Below the pieces are notes generated by a model. The model worked only from the letters and a program-made list of their open reading frames with translations, was not told where the DNA came from and did not search any database. 27,171 nucleotides of DNA from the IMG/VR virus record IMGVR_UViG_3300031997_000053, positions 1 to 27,171 of that record, one strand, 5' to 3'. Position numbers and translations under genes: made by a program. Shown here in pieces: positions 7,282-17,945 of this stretch; positions within the stretch are counted from its first letter, which is position 1; each line of letters opens with the position of its first letter. The DNA is from a virus.

Positions 7282-8823
7282 TTATTTACCTACCACGTAT
7301 AGAGCTTTGCGGTTTAATATAATCATGTATCCATTTTGAGGCACATCAATCGCATCATATCCATACATTAATGCTACACGACCAGGATCGGAAATTATAT
7401 TTGAACCTGCTGTAATTTTACTTTGCAACTTGTGAATTGTATTAAAATCAACGCCCGCGTCTTGCATGGCATGTACTTTCTTGAACATTGCATCAGTGTA
7501 TCGTGAGTAATCCTTGGCTACCAATTTCTCAAGATCTTGAATTTGAATTGCCTTTGCGTTTTTATCTAATGCCATTCTTATTATACATTTTTCGTTTCCT
7601 TTGGCAAACACATCGGCAACAATTTTTCCATAATTGCCCCAATCTTTGGCTGGTATCCCTGGGATCTCCTTATAACCATATGCTGTGTAGGTTCCATTCC
7701 CCCATACGCCTTTGCCACCAAAATATTCTCCGTTTATAAAATCATTTGCATATGCCTCGTTTGTAACTCCTCGATAAAGTTCTCGATGTCCAGCTTTTAT
7801 TATCTCGTCAAGCTCTTTATCGTTTACTTTTATCGGAGGGAGGTCGAAACCGGCTTCTTTGGCCAACCCCTCAAGCACCGTATCGTTTGGAGTCGCCGTC
7901 GGAGTGGTTTGTGCTTCACTCATTTCTTTTAGATATCGATTAACTGTAGGACTCTTCTCAAAATCTATCTCTTTGCTCTCCAGAAGCGGCATGGGAACGT
8001 CTATCCCTGGTGCGGCCATCTCTTGTGGAGGGGGGACGTCGACGGGCCTGGAGGGGGGCATCCTCTCTTCAGCTTCCTCCACCTCTTTCGCAAGCTCCTC
8101 TAGCGATTTCGTGTAGTGGCCTTTGGGCCTGCACCGGCAGCCATTGTGGGCTGGCGGCGTTGGGTCGTTGAAGGTGAAGATTTTGCCATTTTTCTCTCCA
8201 CACTCCGGACACATCCGTTCGTCTTCCGTAGCTATCCATTCCCAGCCATCAGCTACGCCGCCCTGCTTGAGCCTGGAGACGTACCCCTCGTTTCGGAGTT
8301 TGTAGGGAACTACTTGAGAAACCATATCAGCGTAGGATTCAGCCGTGAACATGACCGGATTCTTCCCGGGACGTTGGATTTTGACTGGCTCGTTCTTGAG
8401 GAAATCGGGGATGCTGGACCTGAGTTCCCTGGCGATGTACCCTGGAGATTTGCCTTCCTCGATCATCGTGGTTAGCATCCCCTCTACTTTCGAGGCCAGC
8501 GCCTGGTTATAATCTTTCATGGGTTGCGTCATCTGTTTAGCAACACCTACCAGCCGGCCTACGTCTGGGCCCTGGAGTTGGGGCGGGTAGTACCCGGCGG
8601 CCTCTTTGGTTGCCTGAGCGAACCCGTAGCCATAAGCTCGTTCGAAGTGTTCGACCAGGTTAAGCTCGAACCGGTTGTTCAGGCCGTCGAGAGCTTTCGC
8701 AATCTCTGGGTTAGCTACGGGTGTTCCAACGTTGACCATGTTAACCAGGCTTTCTTTAGCATGTTCGTCCTGCTTCGTTTGGCATATGATGCGGGTTCTC
8801 GTTTTACATAACGTCTCTGACAT
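7282..8823 (-). CDS. MuF-type minor head protein with C-terminal ADP-ribosyltransferase-like domain
   Basis: 513 residues visible. Residues ~50-240 are a phage MuF/SPP1-gp7-like head domain ending in the family's Cys cluster: WEWIATEDERMCPECGEKNG (196-213 region), then PPAHNGCRCRP (223-233). A Pro-rich linker (255-285) leads to residues ~330-513, which look like an ART effector: LYRGV (Arg351), GVWGNGTYTAYGY (373-384), GYDAIDV (488-494) and a terminal IILNRKALYVV strand. Such MuF toxins are known in bacterial temperate phages; they would enter the cell with the DNA and modify a host target. The ART part (7282-7900) is visibly more AT-rich than the MuF part, suggesting an exchanged module. The gene's true 5' end is cut off by the IS element: the ATG at 8823 appears to come from the element's end. 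Confidence 0.7.
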   Translation of the reverse strand: MSETLCKTRTRIICQTKQDEHAKESLVNMVNVGTPVANPEIAKALDGLNNRFELNLVEHFERAYGYGFAQATKEAAGYYPPQLQGPDVGRLVGVAKQMTQPMKDYNQALASKVEGMLTTMIEEGKSPGYIARELRSSIPDFLKNEPVKIQRPGKNPVMFTAESYADMVSQVVPYKLRNEGYVSRLKQGGVADGWEWIATEDERMCPECGEKNGKIFTFNDPTPPAHNGCRCRPKGHYTKSLEELAKEVEEAEERMPPSRPVDVPPPQEMAAPGIDVPMPLLESKEIDFEKSPTVNRYLKEMSEAQTTPTATPNDTVLEGLAKEAGFDLPPIKVNDKELDEIIKAGHRELYRGVTNEAYANDFINGEYFGGKGVWGNGTYTAYGYKEIPGIPAKDWGNYGKIVADVFAKGNEKCIIRMALDKNAKAIQIQDLEKLVAKDYSRYTDAMFKKVHAMQDAGVDFNTIHKLQSKITAGSNIISDPGRVALMYGYDAIDVPQNGYMIILNRKALYVVGK

Positions 8824-8826
8824 ACT

Positions 8827-8847
8827 CCCAGGGCTAAAGCACCTGGG
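8827..8847 (-). repeat. Right-end hairpin of the IS; 3' part of a probable omega RNA
   Basis: Perfect 6-bp stem with a 9-base loop 20 bases past the tnpB stop, followed by GGGAGTATGTCA and the junction with the MuF gene. In TnpB elements the guide RNA comes from the tnpB 3' region and right end, with its guide reading into flanking DNA; here that would start at GAGACGTTATG. The stem is seen; the RNA is inferred from the family. Confidence 0.6.
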
Positions 8848-8866
8848 GTTCTACGGTTAGCTGGAT

Positions 8867-9874
8867 TCAAGCCAGAGCCGTTTTAGGGCTATCAGTGGTC
8901 CCTTTGCATACATCTCTGTCTGTATGCAATCGATCAATGCACGGACGCTTAGCGATATTGAACCCTGCGTTTGCATCAGCATGATCAACGTGCCCACAAT
9001 GAGGACACTTGAAACTCTTTTTGTTCCTGTCTCCAATGAGTCCGCATCTACTACACGATTTTGAAGTATATGCTGGATCAACATAAGCGACTTCTACACC
9101 AAGCAGCTTAGCCTTATACTCTATCTGATTTTGAAGCTGATAGAATGACCAACTGTTCTTAGCATAGCGGAACGACTTTGTATTATGCTTGCCGTTTCTG
9201 ATTCCTGTTAGATCTTCAAGCTTGATACCTTTGCCAGATTCCTTAGCAGTATCAACGATCTTCCTTGAAACCCTGTGGTTTATGTCCTTGACTATTCGGC
9301 TCTCCCTGTCCTTGATTTGCTTAACCTTTCCATATTTGCCGTTCTTCTGAAGTCCTTTGCGAAGGTTCTTGTATTTTTGGTGAATATGGAGGGCAGACTT
9401 TCCAAGCTTGATAACTTTGCCTGTCTCAGGATCAGACACCGCCGCTATATGTCCAACAGTGTTTCGATCAACGCCTATCCATTTCTCAGACTTGATCAAT
9501 TCCGGTTCTGGAATGGATACTGAGACATAGGCGTATTCCTCGCCGACTTCGATTTGATTAATCTTCTCAAAGTTATCAGGGAATTCATATTTTAGGGAGA
9601 GCTTCAAACACGGTGCTGATATGGTCTTTGCGTCTCGGTCTACCTTGATTCCCTGGTTAGGAATTGCTAATTTGACACTCTTAACCGATCTTGCGGTATT
9701 GCTTCGGCTATACTTCCTGAGAATCTGATTAGAGATCATTGATTTAAGACCGAAGTGCTTGACATCTTTGGAGCTAAGGCTATGGGTTTGGATAGCAAAC
9801 TTTGCAATCTTCTTAGCCTTTCTCAGTTCATCTGAGAAGTCCTTTCCATGCTTGATTTTGTAGGTTAGGATCAT
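8867..9874 (-). CDS. tnpB: RNA-guided endonuclease TnpB (OrfB)
   Basis: 335 residues, ATG at 9874 overlapping the tnpA stop (AATGA). RuvC-like catalytic residues are all present: Asp136 (KWIGVDRNT), Glu220 (GIKLEDLTGI) and Asp300 (DHADANAGFNI). The zinc finger is complete (CSRC at 274-277, CPHC at 290-293). The protein is short for the family (often ~370-400), mainly in its N-terminal part, yet no active-site piece is missing. TnpB proteins cleave DNA opposite a TAM using a right-end-derived RNA and help the element persist. It ends 44 bases before the MuF start region. Confidence 0.92.
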   Translation of the reverse strand: MILTYKIKHGKDFSDELRKAKKIAKFAIQTHSLSSKDVKHFGLKSMISNQILRKYSRSNTARSVKSVKLAIPNQGIKVDRDAKTISAPCLKLSLKYEFPDNFEKINQIEVGEEYAYVSVSIPEPELIKSEKWIGVDRNTVGHIAAVSDPETGKVIKLGKSALHIHQKYKNLRKGLQKNGKYGKVKQIKDRESRIVKDINHRVSRKIVDTAKESGKGIKLEDLTGIRNGKHNTKSFRYAKNSWSFYQLQNQIEYKAKLLGVEVAYVDPAYTSKSCSRCGLIGDRNKKSFKCPHCGHVDHADANAGFNIAKRPCIDRLHTDRDVCKGTTDSPKTALA

Positions 9875-10272
9875 TTTTTCTTTTGCTCCTCGATGTACTT
9901 TTTAACCGTATCCTCTGAGATATGTCCACACGATTCAACATAGTAGCTTCGTGTCCAAAGAGTAGGCAATCTGGTTCTCAGAGACTTGAATTGCTGTCTT
10001 AGTTCATGGGATGTATAGCCCTTTAATTGCTGTACTATCCAATGTGGACTAGCAACAGGTGACGCTTTGACAAATAGATGAACATGGTCTGGCATGATCT
10101 GCATTTCTTCAATGGAAACACCAATCTTATCGGCCTTCTCTTGAAGGAGCTGCTTCAGTCGGGCTTCAACATCGCCAACTAATACCTTTCGTCGGTACTT
10201 AGGACACCATATAAGGTGATATCCTATATTATAGACCGTGGTATTACTCCTTGTCCATCTATCTGTTGTCAT
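9871..10272 (-). CDS. tnpA: IS200-type Y1 HUH transposase TnpA
   Basis: 133 residues, a normal length. The N-terminal strand YNIGYHLIWCPKYRRKVLVG is typical of the family; the metal-binding HUH is in MPDHVHLFVKA (residues ~60-70), and a C-terminal helix with the candidate nucleophile Tyr (VKKYIEEQ) closes the protein. It would cut and rejoin single-stranded DNA at the two end hairpins during replication. The ATG lies 2 bases inside the left-end hairpin. Intact, so the element may still be mobile. Confidence 0.95.
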   Translation of the reverse strand: MTTDRWTRSNTTVYNIGYHLIWCPKYRRKVLVGDVEARLKQLLQEKADKIGVSIEEMQIMPDHVHLFVKASPVASPHWIVQQLKGYTSHELRQQFKSLRTRLPTLWTRSYYVESCGHISEDTVKKYIEEQKKK

Positions 10273-10273
10273 C

Positions 10274-10465
10274 TCAAGATGTTATATGCTTGATTGGTAT
10301 ATAAGGTTTATCCTGGAGCGTACGGTAATACCGAACGGCTGCGACATCAGAGAAGGTACGACCGAAGATTTCGAGTACCAACGCCCTGGCATGGTAGAGC
10401 TCGTAGTTCTTATAGAGCCACGCGCCGGGGCTTGACTTCCTGGCATCTTCGTTCGGCTTGGGCAT
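10274..10465 (-). pseudogene. Severed N-terminal part of the MuF gene
   Basis: 63-codon ORF starting with ATG at 10465, three bases after the portal stop (TAGTCG, then ATG), exactly where a MuF gene would begin. It reads MPKPNEDARKSSPGAWLYKN, then YELYHARALVLEIFGRTFSD. Codons 1-55 (to 10301) are host sequence; the last eight and the stop lie in the IS left end. Joining codon 55 to base 8817 gives one open frame of about 566 codons. A short peptide may still be made. The assignment depends on the inferred IS boundaries. Confidence 0.65.
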
Positions 10466-12345: not shown

Positions 12346-13032
12346 TTATATTATGTCCATGTAGGTAGGTTCGAGAGGTTTCGTTTCTGCCCTGATCTTC
12401 TCGATCTCCTTTTGTTTAATCCTCTTCTGTATTGCTCCGAGCCTGGCGCCAGCGCACCGCATCCAGCGAACGACTTCTTGGTACGTTTCTTCTGAGATGT
12501 TCTTCCCCGCGTGAAGAATCACCGTGTTGACTAGTCTTTCTGACCTCTTTGGAGCCGGCCAATAGATGTAAACCTTCCCGTCGTATTCATAGTAGATCGG
12601 CCCACGTCCGAAGATGTATTCGCCTGGGAGATCAACCCCTTGCTTAACGTTGACCCACCGTACTATCCTTCGCATTGGCCGATATCGAGTATTTACCTGG
12701 CCCCCAACCAAAGCCATCGTTGTCTTCTGCGTATGGAGTTCGGTCAGACCGGATGGCCTAACGCATATCTCGGGCTTTACGGGGAGATCCTTTTTCGGTT
12801 GCGTGGGATAGGCAACAAAAAAGTTGCCGTTACTAACCCGCCAAAGGTTGTTGACTTGGTGCGTGTGCGTGTGTGGGTCACTCGTTTCTTTGGCTAGACA
12901 TGGACTGCGCCGGGGCTCGCTGGCGTGATGCTTGTGTGGGCGAATTGTTTCTCCAAATGGGCAGGCATTGCAACTGCGATCAGATACGTGCCTTTTTGGC
13001 CTGATCTCTTCTAGTTCTATTCTTGGTACCAT
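12346..13032 (-). CDS. Cys/His-rich N-terminus protein, unknown, in packaging module
   Basis: 228 residues, ATG at 13032 four bases past the aminotransferase stop, with GAGGTT as ribosome site. The N-terminal 60 residues carry CNACPFG, HKHHAS, a further Cys and HTHTH, a likely metal-binding cluster. The C-terminal half has a beta-rich part (GRGPIYYEYDGKVYIYWPAP) and ends in a Lys/Arg helix. It stands between the sugar aminotransferase and the portal. I do not recognise it; a head-assembly or virion-modifying role would be a guess. Confidence 0.6.
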   Translation of the reverse strand: MVPRIELEEIRPKRHVSDRSCNACPFGETIRPHKHHASEPRRSPCLAKETSDPHTHTHQVNNLWRVSNGNFFVAYPTQPKKDLPVKPEICVRPSGLTELHTQKTTMALVGGQVNTRYRPMRRIVRWVNVKQGVDLPGEYIFGRGPIYYEYDGKVYIYWPAPKRSERLVNTVILHAGKNISEETYQEVVRWMRCAGARLGAIQKRIKQKEIEKIRAETKPLEPTYMDII

Positions 13033-13035
13033 ATT

Positions 13036-14190
13036 TTAAACCTCTCTGAGTTCGATCACGTTTTTTAATGTCTCTATCACATCTGCCGCATCAAAATCCG
13101 TCATTCCGTGGAACATCGGTAAAGAGACGATTGATTTATAAGCTGCATCCGCTACAGGACATTTTTTATAATAACCTAGATTTTTATAATATGGATGTTC
13201 ATAAATCGGAATATAATGAACGTTAACGCCTATGTTTTCGGTGTGCATGTCCGAATAGATTCTTGATTGAGACGATTTTATAATGTCGAAATCGAACCTA
13301 ACAGGATAGAGGTGCCAGGACGAGATCGAGTTCGATCGCTCCTTCGGCAACACTAGACCCGGCATTCTTTGAAATGCGTTATTATAGATGGCGGCTATCT
13401 CCCGACGACGTTTTAAATTTTCAGGAAGTTTGCGTAGTTGGGAGATGCCAAGTGCAGATGCGATATCAGTCAACCTGTAATTATATCCGAGATCGGTCAT
13501 TTCGTATTTCCACGTTCTTGTCAGGCTTCGTTGCCTAAAATCAAGTCCTATTCCGTGGTTCCTAAAAAGAGTCAGACGTCTTGCAAGATCACAGTCGTTG
13601 GTTGTAACCATCCCTCCTTCTCCAGTTGTTATATGTTTTACCGGATGAAAAGAGAAAATTGTCATGTCACTAATTCCACCAATTGGTTTTCCCTTATATT
13701 TGGCTCCGAGGGCATGACATGCGTCTTCTATCAGAAGAAGATGGGAATCTTCTGCGATTTGAGCTAAACTATCCAGATCTGCGGGATGGCCCCCATAATC
13801 CACTGCTAAGATGGCCTTGGTTCTTGTAGAGACTAACTCGGCAACCTCGTTGGGGTTAAGATTGAGTGTATCATAACTTACGTCTGCAAAGAGTGGGCGT
13901 CCTCCCTGGTAGAGAACGCAATTTGAGGTAGCGCAAAAACTTAGCGGTGATGTTACAACTTCATCATCCTTTGCGATATTTGCAGCGTAGATGGCCCCAT
14001 GTAGTGCTGCTGTTCCGGAACTGTAACTGACTGCATAATCCGCTTCGACTACATCTGAGAAAAATTCTTCAAATTCTACTACTTTCGGGCCAGTTGTTAT
14101 GAAATCCGATCTTAGAACTTCGTTCACGGCCCGGATGTCATCTTCCTCAATCTTCTGTCGTGCATAAGGCAAAAAGGTTTCCCGGGTCAT
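13036..14190 (-). CDS. DegT/DnrJ/EryC1 sugar aminotransferase, PseC-like
   Basis: 384 residues, the family's normal length, and intact. PLP fold type I signs: SSGTAALHGA (57-66), LLIEDACHALGA with Asp156 binding the PLP ring, and FHPVKHITTGEGGM with Lys185 as Schiff-base Lys. The sequence resembles PseC, which transfers an amino group from glutamate to C4 of a UDP-keto-deoxysugar on the way to pseudaminic-acid-like sugars; related enzymes serve other amino sugars. The ATG overlaps the large-terminase stop (CGATGA), so it is coupled to a late viral gene. The gene is more AT-rich than its neighbours, suggesting recent capture. No other sugar gene is present, so it would use host intermediates. 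The substrate cannot be told from sequence alone. Confidence 0.85.
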   Translation of the reverse strand: MTRETFLPYARQKIEEDDIRAVNEVLRSDFITTGPKVVEFEEFFSDVVEADYAVSYSSGTAALHGAIYAANIAKDDEVVTSPLSFCATSNCVLYQGGRPLFADVSYDTLNLNPNEVAELVSTRTKAILAVDYGGHPADLDSLAQIAEDSHLLLIEDACHALGAKYKGKPIGGISDMTIFSFHPVKHITTGEGGMVTTNDCDLARRLTLFRNHGIGLDFRQRSLTRTWKYEMTDLGYNYRLTDIASALGISQLRKLPENLKRRREIAAIYNNAFQRMPGLVLPKERSNSISSWHLYPVRFDFDIIKSSQSRIYSDMHTENIGVNVHYIPIYEHPYYKNLGYYKKCPVADAAYKSIVSLPMFHGMTDFDAADVIETLKNVIELREV

Positions 14191-15701
14191 CGTATGGCTC
14201 TCCCGAAAGCGAACAGAGCTCGTCTCTCTTTACCAAGACCGCAGAAGGTTTCCTGGATGTAGGTTATAGCCTGGCTGGTAGCATCTACTTGATCATCATG
14301 TTTCGATCCGGGAAAGTTAAGGAGTTCGTTTACGTATTCGTGCATCCAGGGGGCTTTCCTTATGAAAACGTTGCCACTACGAAAGTAAGGAGTTACAGCC
14401 GACGCCCTGGATTCTTTGGACCCTACTGCTCTTATCGGGATGATCCCTCCAACCTTCTCCGAGAGGACGTTTATGATGGCGTCGCCGTTCGCCGCCTCCT
14501 CTATCAGTTTTGCGGACAGGCCTGGATAAAGAATTAGAATATCCGCGAGCTCATCTAAACTTTTTGTGAAACTCATCTTCTTTCGGACTTGGTCATGAAG
14601 GTACATATTCGGTCGTTTCCAGGCCCAGACCTGGATGACTACATAATCTCCTTTTTTGCTTTCCTTGAACGTAGCGTCAACAGACATAATATAGGCTTCG
14701 ATGTCCTGGGGGAGGTGATCGTAAGACAGCATCCAATTTCGTTCGAACATTGCCCCCTTTTTAGGTGAGGGGAGTTGCTGTTGTTGTGCAGCGAAGACGT
14801 ATTCGTCCTTCTGGTATTCTTTGATCTGCTCCATCCCTTCTCGTTCGGGCCAGAGTAGATCGCCTTCTTTGCGGGATACTATGAGCCTCTTGTCGCCGAT
14901 AGGCGAATAGATGTCCTCGTCCTGCTCGGAGATGAGCGGGATCCTGAGTAACGTCCACTCACCTCCTTTCAGAACATGCGCATTGAGACCCGAGACGTCC
15001 AGGCCTGTAAGGTATCCCGTCATGTCGTTCTGGTGAAGCCTTTGCTGGATGAGTACAACCGCTCCTTCTCTTTTATCATCGAGACGAGATTTGAAGGTAT
15101 TGGAGTACCAGGTGTTCGCCATCTCCCTCATTGCTTCTGACTCGGCCTCTTGCGGACTCGTTGGGTCGTCGATAACCAGCCTATTGCCTCCCATGCCCGT
15201 TACCTGGCCGCCGATTGAGGTCGAGTACATCGCCCCCCTTTCTGTGTTAACGAAATCGGCTTTCCGGTTATGATCGTCGCGGAGCTTTATTATATTGGAC
15301 CAATTCTTTCTGAACCACTCGGAAAGGATTATGTCCTTGCGTTTTATCGAATGAAGAACCGAAAGATCGGAAGCGTAGCTTGAGAACACCCACCGTTGGG
15401 ATGGTACGTGGAGCCACTCCCAGCACGGCCACATCAGACTGACCAAGGTGCTTTTAGTGTACCTTGGCGGGATGTTTATAATTAGACGTTTGATCTCGCC
15501 GAGGCTGACTGCCATCAGGTATTCGCAGATCAGCTCGATATGCCAGTTGCGGAGGAACTTAGTCGCTGGGTTTATGATCGGCCAGGCGTTTTGCGTGAAA
15601 TTGAGAAGGTGCTCTTCAGATTGGTACTTCTCGTCTTCCTGGAGCAAACGCAACGTATATGGATTATTCAGAGACATTTCTTTGCAAGCCGCAGCACCCA
15701 T
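14187..15701 (-). CDS. terL: Large terminase subunit (ATPase/nuclease)
   Basis: 504 residues. Walker A is NIPPRYTKST (76-85) and Walker B RLVIDDP (174-180, Asp178/Asp179), followed by a TSPQEAES coupling region; Gln-rich LIQQRLHQNDMTG matches the family's motif III area. The nuclease domain has Asp342 (SVDATFKESKKGDY), Glu401/402 (IEEAANG) and KHDDQVDA (Asp469, 470, 473). It packages viral DNA into the procapsid through the portal and cuts the genome. ATG at 15701 follows GGTGAAACC; an in-frame ATG eight codons later is an alternative. Followed by the overlapping aminotransferase gene. Confidence 0.95.
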   Translation of the reverse strand: MGAAACKEMSLNNPYTLRLLQEDEKYQSEEHLLNFTQNAWPIINPATKFLRNWHIELICEYLMAVSLGEIKRLIINIPPRYTKSTLVSLMWPCWEWLHVPSQRWVFSSYASDLSVLHSIKRKDIILSEWFRKNWSNIIKLRDDHNRKADFVNTERGAMYSTSIGGQVTGMGGNRLVIDDPTSPQEAESEAMREMANTWYSNTFKSRLDDKREGAVVLIQQRLHQNDMTGYLTGLDVSGLNAHVLKGGEWTLLRIPLISEQDEDIYSPIGDKRLIVSRKEGDLLWPEREGMEQIKEYQKDEYVFAAQQQQLPSPKKGAMFERNWMLSYDHLPQDIEAYIMSVDATFKESKKGDYVVIQVWAWKRPNMYLHDQVRKKMSFTKSLDELADILILYPGLSAKLIEEAANGDAIINVLSEKVGGIIPIRAVGSKESRASAVTPYFRSGNVFIRKAPWMHEYVNELLNFPGSKHDDQVDATSQAITYIQETFCGLGKERRALFAFGRAIR

Positions 15702-15747: not shown

Positions 15748-16437
15748 TTATTTTTTATCTTTCGTTGTGTTTCGGCCGGTTTGTGGCTCGGTTTTGCCTG
15801 CCTTTTTACTTTTTGCAAGATTATGGAACTTCGGACGCACAGAACCCTCGGCAAGATCTTTTTCTTTCTTAACCAAAAGCTCTAAAATTTGGCGTTCCCG
15901 TTCTTCAGGCGAGAGAAACGTTAGCTCAAGTGGCCCTTCCCCTGGCCCGCTAACTTCGATGTTCTGAGTGTTCATCCACTTGTCAGGATCGCTGCTCCTT
16001 AAGAACCTGGTGCGGTTCACGAGGAAAAATATCTGGGCGGTAACGTTACCGCCGACTCCAGTAGTGTACAGAGCATCTGCCATAGCAGCCTGCTGAGTCT
16101 TCATCGCTGCTCGGACTTTCGCATCGTAAGCAGGATGTGTGGCCCTGTACTCGATTATGTAAGACGGAGAGACGTCCAAAACGTTGCATGAGTGCATAAA
16201 GGTATTCCCAAAAGCGAGCAACTCCAGAAGCCTCTCCTTTATCTCCGAGGTGATCTTGGAGAACCTTGGCTTCTTAGCGATTACCTCCTCCCTGACTTCA
16301 TGTCCCGAGGCACGTAGGCTCTCTACAACCTCTGGCGAAGGATCATGTAGAAGCATCTCTTCGCCATTAACTATCAGAGTGAACTTTTTGGCGATGGCAA
16401 CTGGCCCTGGTTTCACTGGTGGTTTTTCTGGTTCCAT
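15748..16437 (-). CDS. terS: Small terminase subunit, probable
   Basis: 229 residues directly before terL. The middle has a helix-turn-helix-like DNA-binding segment (IKERLLELLAFGNTFMHSCN, then VLDVSPSYIIEYRATHPAYD, residues ~66-104), then the typical small-terminase pattern AAMKTQQAAMADALYTTGVG with a final helix NVTAQIFFLVNRTRFLRSSD and the conserved Trp (DPDKW). The tail is Lys-rich. It would recognise the packaging start and load TerL. The 46-bp gap to terL is AT-rich. Confidence 0.8.
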   Translation of the reverse strand: MEPEKPPVKPGPVAIAKKFTLIVNGEEMLLHDPSPEVVESLRASGHEVREEVIAKKPRFSKITSEIKERLLELLAFGNTFMHSCNVLDVSPSYIIEYRATHPAYDAKVRAAMKTQQAAMADALYTTGVGGNVTAQIFFLVNRTRFLRSSDPDKWMNTQNIEVSGPGEGPLELTFLSPEERERQILELLVKKEKDLAEGSVRPKFHNLAKSKKAGKTEPQTGRNTTKDKK

Positions 16438-16452
16438 TCATAACACACTCGA

Positions 16453-17082
16453 TTATTTTTTTGCAAAATATTGTGATTTATTGGGATATATCGAATCAAT
16501 AAAATCTGGCTTGTAGACAAAAACGATATATCTGTAGTTAGGAAGACTATGATCTAAAAAAACATATCTGGAGAAGGTTTGGAGACAAAAGGTCAGCATC
16601 TCCGCAGGATCTATATAAGTAACCTTTTCATCATTGAAATCGACGTAACTCGAGAAGCAATCAAAAGCAATCCCCTTTTTAGCGACCGCGTACATAACTC
16701 GCAGCTCATCCAACAGCTCCTCTTTTGGTGATTCGTTGAAGGTCGTGATAGTAACCACGTAATCAGCATCAAGAAACGGAGAGATGTCTTTGAGGTGGCC
16801 GTGATAAATAGTAGATCGCTGGTGCTTCTGCTTGGAGAATACGACCATATCCAGGAGAGTATCATTGCCCGAGTAGCCGACTCTTCGCCTGGTTTTCAGG
16901 TATTCCTTGAAATGGCATAATCCGCATCCCACTTCATGAACACGGATTTGATCTCGTTCAAACTTGAAAAGCTGAAGGAACCTTGAGAACATTAGGTTCT
17001 GGGATTCCGGGCCGTTGTACCCTACCGCTCTGGGATCATCACTAAATTCCATTAGAGCCCGACTATATTCAGCCGGTTCCAT
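16453..17082 (-). CDS. Class I SAM-dependent methyltransferase-like protein
   Basis: 209 residues, ATG at 17082. Motif I is VHEVGCGLCHFKEYLK (residues ~48-63), with a second acidic strand at VGYSGNDTLLDM and a motif-IV-like strand at DADYVVTITTFNES (~105-118). The C-terminus ends in aromatic YRYIVFVYKPDF, a common final strand of the fold. No DPPY-type DNA target motif is seen, so a small molecule, glycan or protein target fits better. It is AT-rich like the nearby aminotransferase; the two may act on one glycan, which is inference only. It sits 16 bases before terS. Confidence 0.65.
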   Translation of the reverse strand: MEPAEYSRALMEFSDDPRAVGYNGPESQNLMFSRFLQLFKFERDQIRVHEVGCGLCHFKEYLKTRRRVGYSGNDTLLDMVVFSKQKHQRSTIYHGHLKDISPFLDADYVVTITTFNESPKEELLDELRVMYAVAKKGIAFDCFSSYVDFNDEKVTYIDPAEMLTFCLQTFSRYVFLDHSLPNYRYIVFVYKPDFIDSIYPNKSQYFAKK

Positions 17083-17185
17083 GAATTACCTCTGTTATGG
17101 CATACTTCTCGTAGTTCATGATGAGATTCCTGCTGGTCTTCGGGCCTAGATTGAATAGCATATCTATTACTGATAACCTTGGCAC
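17069..17185 (-). CDS. Possible 38-residue small protein
   Basis: From GTG at 17185 (or ATG at 17161) the frame reads VPRLSVIDMLFNLGPKTSRN, then MNYEKYAITEVIHGTG, and its stop lies within the methyltransferase start. The sequence looks protein-like, but the start is uncertain and there is no strong ribosome site. It may be a remnant of a larger gene. Confidence 0.3.
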   Translation of the reverse strand: MPRLSVIDMLFNLGPKTSRNLIMNYEKYAITEVIHGTG

Positions 17186-17193
17186 GAAGATAT

Positions 17194-17370
17194 TTAAATG
17201 CTTGTTTGAGCATCGAATAGCGCGTGCCACTTCCCGGCTCCGTAGATCTTGTCGAGTATTCCCTTCGTGTCTTCGTCCTCGTCCAGGAAGTTCTTGTATA
17301 GCTCTCTGGCCTGTGCTATCTTCACCTTTTCTGCTCTTGTGAGCTGCCGGAATGGTTTTGCCATGTTCAT
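17194..17370 (-). CDS. 58-residue helical protein, unknown
   Basis: ATG at 17370 overlaps the previous stop (GCATGA) and has GGAGAG as ribosome site. Reads MNMAKPFRQLTRAEKVKIAQ, then ARELYKNFLDEDEDTKGILD, ending HALFDAQTSI. A basic N-terminus then an acidic helix. Overlap, ribosome site and codon use all support it. No family recognised. Confidence 0.65.
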   Translation of the reverse strand: MNMAKPFRQLTRAEKVKIAQARELYKNFLDEDEDTKGILDKIYGAGKWHALFDAQTSI

Positions 17371-17945
17371 GCACTCTCCTTTCCCGCAAGGATATTCTCG
17401 ATTGCCTGGAGCTGGGTCATGCGGCTGTTCAGCATCGCTTTCTTCTTGTTGGCCTTTTCGACTGCCTCCTTGAAGGACTCGTTCAGGCCTTTTACAATTT
17501 CCTGAAGGCTATAGCGTTTTATGGCAGCTTTGGTATCCATGTCGGTCGCAGTATTGTTGAAATGGCTATGCTCCCCCTGCCACCGTGACCAATCGCCTTC
17601 CTGGGTGAAAAGAATAAACTTGCCTGATCTTGTCAGCACGAGGATATCCCCTTCGTACCACCCTCTGTTGTCCCTATCATCAGAACGCTGTTTGGTATTG
17701 TTAACCAGGATCAGCCCCTTCTCCTCGGAATATTCGTACAGCCACTCTTTCGTTTGATAGCCTATCGAGTGTCCGTGTACCTGGATTTTGTAGTCCATGA
17801 ACCTCATCATCGGGAGGAGATTTTCGACTATCCTATCGAGGATGACGGTCTCCTGGTCTATCGTGGCCGTCAGTATTCCTTCTACCTCTCGTCCCATCTT
17901 TTCCAGCTCGCCTAGCTGGCCTATGAAGCTCTCTATTGCTTCCAT
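17367..17945 (-). CDS. 192-residue protein, unknown, with helical termini
   Basis: ATG at 17945 with AAGGTGAC before it, the ribosome site standing directly behind a 6-bp hairpin. N-terminal coiled-coil-like helix (MEAIESFIGQLGELEKMGRE), a central beta-rich part with NRGWYEGDILVLTRSGKFIL and GDWSRWQGEHSHF, then a C-terminal helix with KEAVEKANKKKAMLNSRM. No catalytic motif recognised. The fourth-last gene before terS, so it could be an early-late accessory protein. Confidence 0.65.
   Translation of the reverse strand: MEAIESFIGQLGELEKMGREVEGILTATIDQETVILDRIVENLLPMMRFMDYKIQVHGHSIGYQTKEWLYEYSEEKGLILVNNTKQRSDDRDNRGWYEGDILVLTRSGKFILFTQEGDWSRWQGEHSHFNNTATDMDTKAAIKRYSLQEIVKGLNESFKEAVEKANKKKAMLNSRMTQLQAIENILAGKESA

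Follow-up and report, generated by a model that had tools for sequence, protein, structure and literature searches.

What does a sugar-nucleotide aminotransferase do inside the packaging module of a virus? The question is raised by the window analyzed here, a stretch of 27,171 nucleotides (positions 1-27,171 of IMG/VR record IMGVR_UViG_3300031997_000053), which is a 27-kb fragment of a genome of at least 77 kb. The minus strand of the window encodes, in order, a methyltransferase-like protein, the small and large terminase subunits (terS and terL), the aminotransferase, an unknown protein and the portal (12325-10469), followed by an IS200/IS605 element, a Mu F-like head protein and the capsid genes (Table 1). 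The aminotransferase reading frame is complete, begins with ATG and contains no internal stops. As the original prediction had described, it shares four bases with terL, in that the ATGA at 14187-14190 belongs to both the terL stop and the aminotransferase start, and it is AT-rich, with a GC content of 0.431 (GC3 of 0.387) compared with 0.498 (0.590) for terL and 0.525 (0.640) for the portal gene.

Profile searches place the protein in the DegT/ArnB superfamily (Pfam DegT_DnrJ_EryC1, E=1.6e-116, 389.9 bits). It scores 454.9 bits against the NCBIfam PseC equivalog TIGR03588, which exceeds the curated cut-off of 423.5, but does not reach the cut-off for the ArnB equivalog (301.3 versus 631 bits). 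Residue K185 pairs with K188 of ArnB, which is a lysine in 1mdo and an alanine in the K188A mutant 4oca. Across an alignment of the aminotransferase and 19 relatives, K185, D156, H159, S180, G59-T60 and N237 are invariant, and the retention of the catalytic lysine and family residues in all 20 sequences rules out a degenerate active site, a weakness that the original prediction had allowed for. In a fold search, an AlphaFold model of the protein (mean pLDDT of 90.3) matched ArnB, PseC (2fnu/2fni) and perosamine synthase with similar scores (Z about 50), so the substrate cannot be read from the fold alone. Sequence comparison thus confirms an intact DegT/ArnB-type, PseC-like enzyme, as had been proposed, and its predicted reaction is C4 amination of a UDP-4-keto-6-deoxy-N-acetylhexosamine.

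Table 1. Features of the window around the aminotransferase gene.
Feature	Position	Strand	Evidence or comment
Protein between aminotransferase and portal	12346..13032	-	228 aa; fast evolving, dN/dS 0.61 vs G002
PseC-type (DegT/ArnB superfamily) sugar-nucleotide 4-aminotransferase	13036..14190	-	384 aa; PLP lysine K185; profile, alignment, fold
terL, large terminase	14187..15701	-	phrog_38 6.5e-101; psiM2_ORF9 84.8 bits
terS, small terminase	15748..16437	-	phrog_309 4.1e-10
Putative SAM methyltransferase	16453..17082	-	weak Methyltransf_25 match (G002 copy)
wbqC remnant	17069..17205	-	last ~44 codons; whole 236-aa WbqC-family gene in G002
Deletion junction	17204..17206	.	~5.84 kb of G002 cassette missing; 1-nt overlap at join
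5' ORF fragment	17206..17370	-	108 aa in G002 (51620-51946); truncated by deletion

The same terL-aminotransferase arrangement was found in two further viral contigs. The first, G001 (IMGVR_UViG_3300031834_001561, 12.7 kb), agrees with the window at 99.8%, with no difference across the aminotransferase and its two junctions; elsewhere the two differ, which indicates that G001 is a separate assembly. The second, G002 (IMGVR_UViG_3300032053_000040, 77.3 kb), has the gene order of the window and an aminotransferase protein that is 97% identical. Because both contigs carry the same junctions, chimeric assembly at 13036 or 14190, the other ground on which the gene might have been set aside, is excluded.

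Comparison with G002 also revealed what the window has lost. The two sequences are collinear, but approximately 5.84 kb of G002 (51786-57621) is missing from the window at about position 17205. In G002, this block sits just upstream of the methyltransferase-terS-terL-aminotransferase run and encodes a formyltransferase, a PIG-L deacetylase and a FlaA1/PseB-like UDP-GlcNAc 4,6-dehydratase, followed by a 235-aa protein of no named family, a GT4-like glycosyltransferase (a weak match), a ParB-like protein and a WbqC-family protein. The formyltransferase belongs to PF21553, with 1zgh, annotated as a methionyl-tRNA formyltransferase, as its nearest solved chain and weaker matches to ArnA and GDP-perosamine formyltransferase. 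The dehydratase belongs to PF02719 (Polysacc_synt_2), and its best solved match is 2gn4, the UDP-GlcNAc C6 dehydratase (FlaA1/PseB) of H. pylori. The GC content of the cassette genes, 0.43-0.49, is low like that of the aminotransferase, compared with 0.53-0.55 for the portal and capsid genes. One G002 protein (L010:4197-5486) combines a ParB-N domain with an N4/N6 DNA methylase-like domain.

Both genes at the edges of the missing block are truncated in the window, which indicates that the window arose by deletion from an ancestor that bore the cassette, and the open reading frame listed at 17069-17389 is, on this comparison, a deletion scar and not a gene. The methyltransferase gene overlaps wbqC in G002, which makes it probable that this gene is what remains of the 3' end of the upstream cassette (dN/dS of 0.25 between window and G002). 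When viral contigs were searched for the exact junction near 17205, the window was its sole carrier, and G001 stops some 350 bases before reaching it, so the junction rests on one assembly. The original prediction had held that the virus carries no other sugar-nucleotide genes, which the comparison does not bear out in that form: the window is a fragment that keeps the truncated tail of wbqC, and G002 has a sugar cassette beside the same run of genes.

Based on these findings, we consider it probable that the aminotransferase catalyzes the second step of a UDP-amino-sugar pathway that the virus itself encodes and that serves to decorate either virions or the host surface. In the order of steps predicted for G002, the PseB-like dehydratase would make a 4-keto-6-deoxy sugar from UDP-GlcNAc, and the aminotransferase would then aminate this keto-sugar at C4, a reaction of the PseC type. 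The formyltransferase, whose specificity for a sugar is predicted, perhaps N-formylates the new amine, and the GT4-like transferase would attach the sugar either to a protein of the virion or to the surface of the host. The PIG-L, WbqC and methyltransferase proteins could supply further tailoring steps. A role in decorating virions or changing the host surface glycan had been suggested for the aminotransferase before and is plausible. In the window variant, the dehydratase gene and most partner genes were lost with the 5.8-kb deletion, and the enzyme, if active at present, would thus use a host keto-sugar or the products of genes outside the fragment; otherwise, it would be a leftover.

A virus that encodes the aminotransferase alone by design, diverting a 4-keto-sugar of the host to alter the glycan of host or virion, is an unlikely alternative, yet the best placed of those we weighed. 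It is consistent with an aminotransferase that is intact and under constraint, with the presence of DegT aminotransferases in some other phages, and with a search of the window and G001 that yielded no dehydratase. However, the window is merely part of a genome of at least 77 kb, and the syntenic G002 has partner genes beside the same run, while the wbqC gene of the window is cut short. The proposal that the enzyme borrows a host keto-sugar is therefore possible for the window variant but does not describe the original state, in which a dehydratase is encoded upstream; the truncated wbqC tail at the breakpoint makes host dependence at most a secondary state. Further viral contigs with DegT proteins (L096-L102) encode distant enzymes that are 31-37% identical and have no structural genes detectably shared with the window over the compared stretch.

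Somewhat less likely still is a true pseudaminic acid route, in which PseB and PseC are viral and PseH, PseG, PseI and PseF come from the host. This reading is favored by the aminotransferase score above the PseC cut-off and by an unrelated virus, G003 (IMGVR_UViG_3300033145_003114), which carries terL, portal and capsid genes together with a long sugar block. That block encodes a PseB (476.8 bits, cut-off 407.75), a PseC (494.3 bits, cut-off 423.5) and a pseudaminic-associated methylase (TIGR03587, 168.8 versus 112.05 bits), along with a weak PseF-like cytidylyltransferase, WecB and a nucleotide-sugar dehydrogenase, and at the very end of the contig the first part of PseI is matched over a short length. 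The sugar genes of G003 extend over about 15 kb and include LicD-like and repeated unknown glycosyltransferase-like proteins; an apparent intein lies within a ligase-like open reading frame at 27935-30205. In G002, by contrast, the PseB-like dehydratase scores only 309.5 bits against the same PseB profile, and the cassette includes a formyltransferase. The search for PseB and PseH elsewhere, which had been proposed as a check, thus found a candidate for the first, below the cut-off, and none for the second: PseH, PseI and PseF had no match in the window, G001 or G002, contigs that may be fragments. The product accordingly need not be pseudaminic acid, and a formylated or free 4-amino-hexose is the more likely product on the genes present.

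We regard as improbable a relic in which the cassette is gone and the aminotransferase, left without substrate, is being lost. The deletion of the upstream block from the window fits this account, but the reading frame is intact and identical in the near-identical G001, and dN/dS between window and G002 is 0.17, although most of this divergence may predate the deletion. Finally, it is very improbable that chimeric assembly produced the arrangement, since G001 and G002 exclude it for the aminotransferase itself and, even though the junction near 17205 is absent from other viral contigs, the one nucleotide shared there is too short to join on, which disfavors an assembler misjoin. The virus-encoded pathway thus remains the reading that we prefer.

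We also investigated where the aminotransferase came from. In a maximum-likelihood tree, the window and G002 enzymes group with Acidobacteriota PseC as their sister clade (support 100/98; 54-58% identity), and in the five nearest Acidobacteriota relatives pseC lies directly downstream of pseB. Families of the cassette also occur near cellular pseC, as in a cellular locus (L079) where WbqC, PIG-L and PseC are found together. The stem of the viral clade is long (0.77 changes per column), which suggests that the transfer was not recent or that the true donor lineage lies outside the set of the tree. The G003 aminotransferase is 47-48% identical to the window and G002 type and branches elsewhere in the tree, so that tailed viruses must have acquired pseB-pseC at least twice.

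Divergence between the window and G002 varies along the locus. The dS of the aminotransferase, 0.081, equals that of the portal gene (0.08) and is near that of the capsid gene (0.13), which makes it less likely that the high identity of the aminotransferase reflects its recent passage from one virus to the other. The inflated dS values of terL (1.03), the gene at 12346-13032 (0.37), the methyltransferase gene (0.32) and terS (0.25) suggest instead that the flanks were exchanged, and the locus appears to be a mosaic in which the aminotransferase sits at background divergence. Within this virus group, terminase genes apparently move independently of their neighbors (terL at 14187-15701 of the window, 59064-60620 of G002). 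The 12346-13032 protein has 65% amino acid identity between window and G002 and a His/Cys-rich N-terminal part.

Other features of the window were also recorded. The IS200/IS605 element (8817-10324; Y1 TnpA at 9871-10272, TnpB at 8867-9874) lies between the portal and Mu F-like head genes; it is present in G001, and its site is empty in G002 (64477/64478), so the insertion separates the window and G002 lineages. The Pfam match of the Mu F-like head morphogenesis protein (7282-8823) covers only its Mu F part; the long extension at its C terminus looks, on visual inspection, like an ADP-ribosyltransferase domain (LYRGV...YGYDAIDV). A tail-fiber-like protein at 452-1873 has internal repeats (KDGTVAMTGALDLGTHKINNVVDP type), and the matching region of G002 gives several overlapping alignments.

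The host of this virus group is likely archaeal. G002 has the sheath and baseplate J genes of a myovirus and, unlike the window, encodes a full-length MCM helicase. Among viral proteins, the best long matches to this helicase come from viruses of haloarchaea, Altiarchaeum and Methanocaldococcus, but MCM matches also turn up in certain Microbacterium and Bacillus phages, and an archaeal host is therefore not proven. Copies of TnpB in a few Thermoplasmatota genomes mostly share 63-66% identity with that of the window, which is suggestive of a host in that phylum, and a TerL search of up to 390 Thermoplasmatota genomes found nothing closer than relatives at 29-33%.

The predicted pathway resembles known systems in part. 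Like the FlaA1-PseC pathway of H. pylori and C. jejuni, it combines an enzyme above the PseC cut-off with a FlaA1-like dehydratase, encoded upstream in G002, and the cellular sisters of the viral enzyme occur as pseB-pseC pairs; in contrast, the viral gene is split from the dehydratase gene by terS-terL, G002 has a formyltransferase, and PseH, PseI and PseF were not found in these contigs. With ArnB/ArnA, which yields UDP-Ara4N and its formylated form, it shares the fold, 35% identity and the logic of an aminotransferase plus a formyltransferase, but the viral enzyme is far below the ArnB cut-off and the G002 dehydratase is of the FlaA1 type. G003 likewise is a tailed-virus contig with pseB-pseC, although it represents an unrelated virus with a larger, pseudaminic-like cassette. 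Phage-encoded surface-glycan genes in Acinetobacter, such as epaA and epaB, alter host amino-sugar or nonulosonic acid chemistry (PMC12053666). Those genes convert a finished sugar, in contrast to the upstream dehydratase-aminotransferase cassette placed here around the packaging module. The spike of HRPV-1 carries host-made 5-N-formyl-legionaminic acid, which is implicated in virus-host interaction (PMC6137143). HRPV-1 is thus an archaeal virus whose particle bears an N-formylated amino sugar, as the genes here would predict, but it uses the pathway of its host and has none of its own, whereas the window and G002 group encodes part of one. In the open-access literature searched, we found no precedent for pseudaminic or nucleotide-sugar pathways encoded by archaeal viruses.

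As a more tentative proposal, possible but short of probable, archaeal tailed viruses may encode their own pathway to a formylated 4-amino-4,6-dideoxy-sugar around the terminase genes, with lineages losing or keeping parts of it by deletion and thereby changing virion or host glycans within a population. Among amino-sugar glycans on archaeal virus particles, the one studied best, that of HRPV-1, is a product of host machinery. If a virus group does bring its own dehydratase, aminotransferase, formyltransferase and glycosyltransferase, some archaeal viruses would make their own sugar coat or alter that of the host, comparable to lysogenic conversion in bacteria. G002, which has the cassette, and its near relative the window, which lacks it, offer a natural comparison for the role of the sugar.
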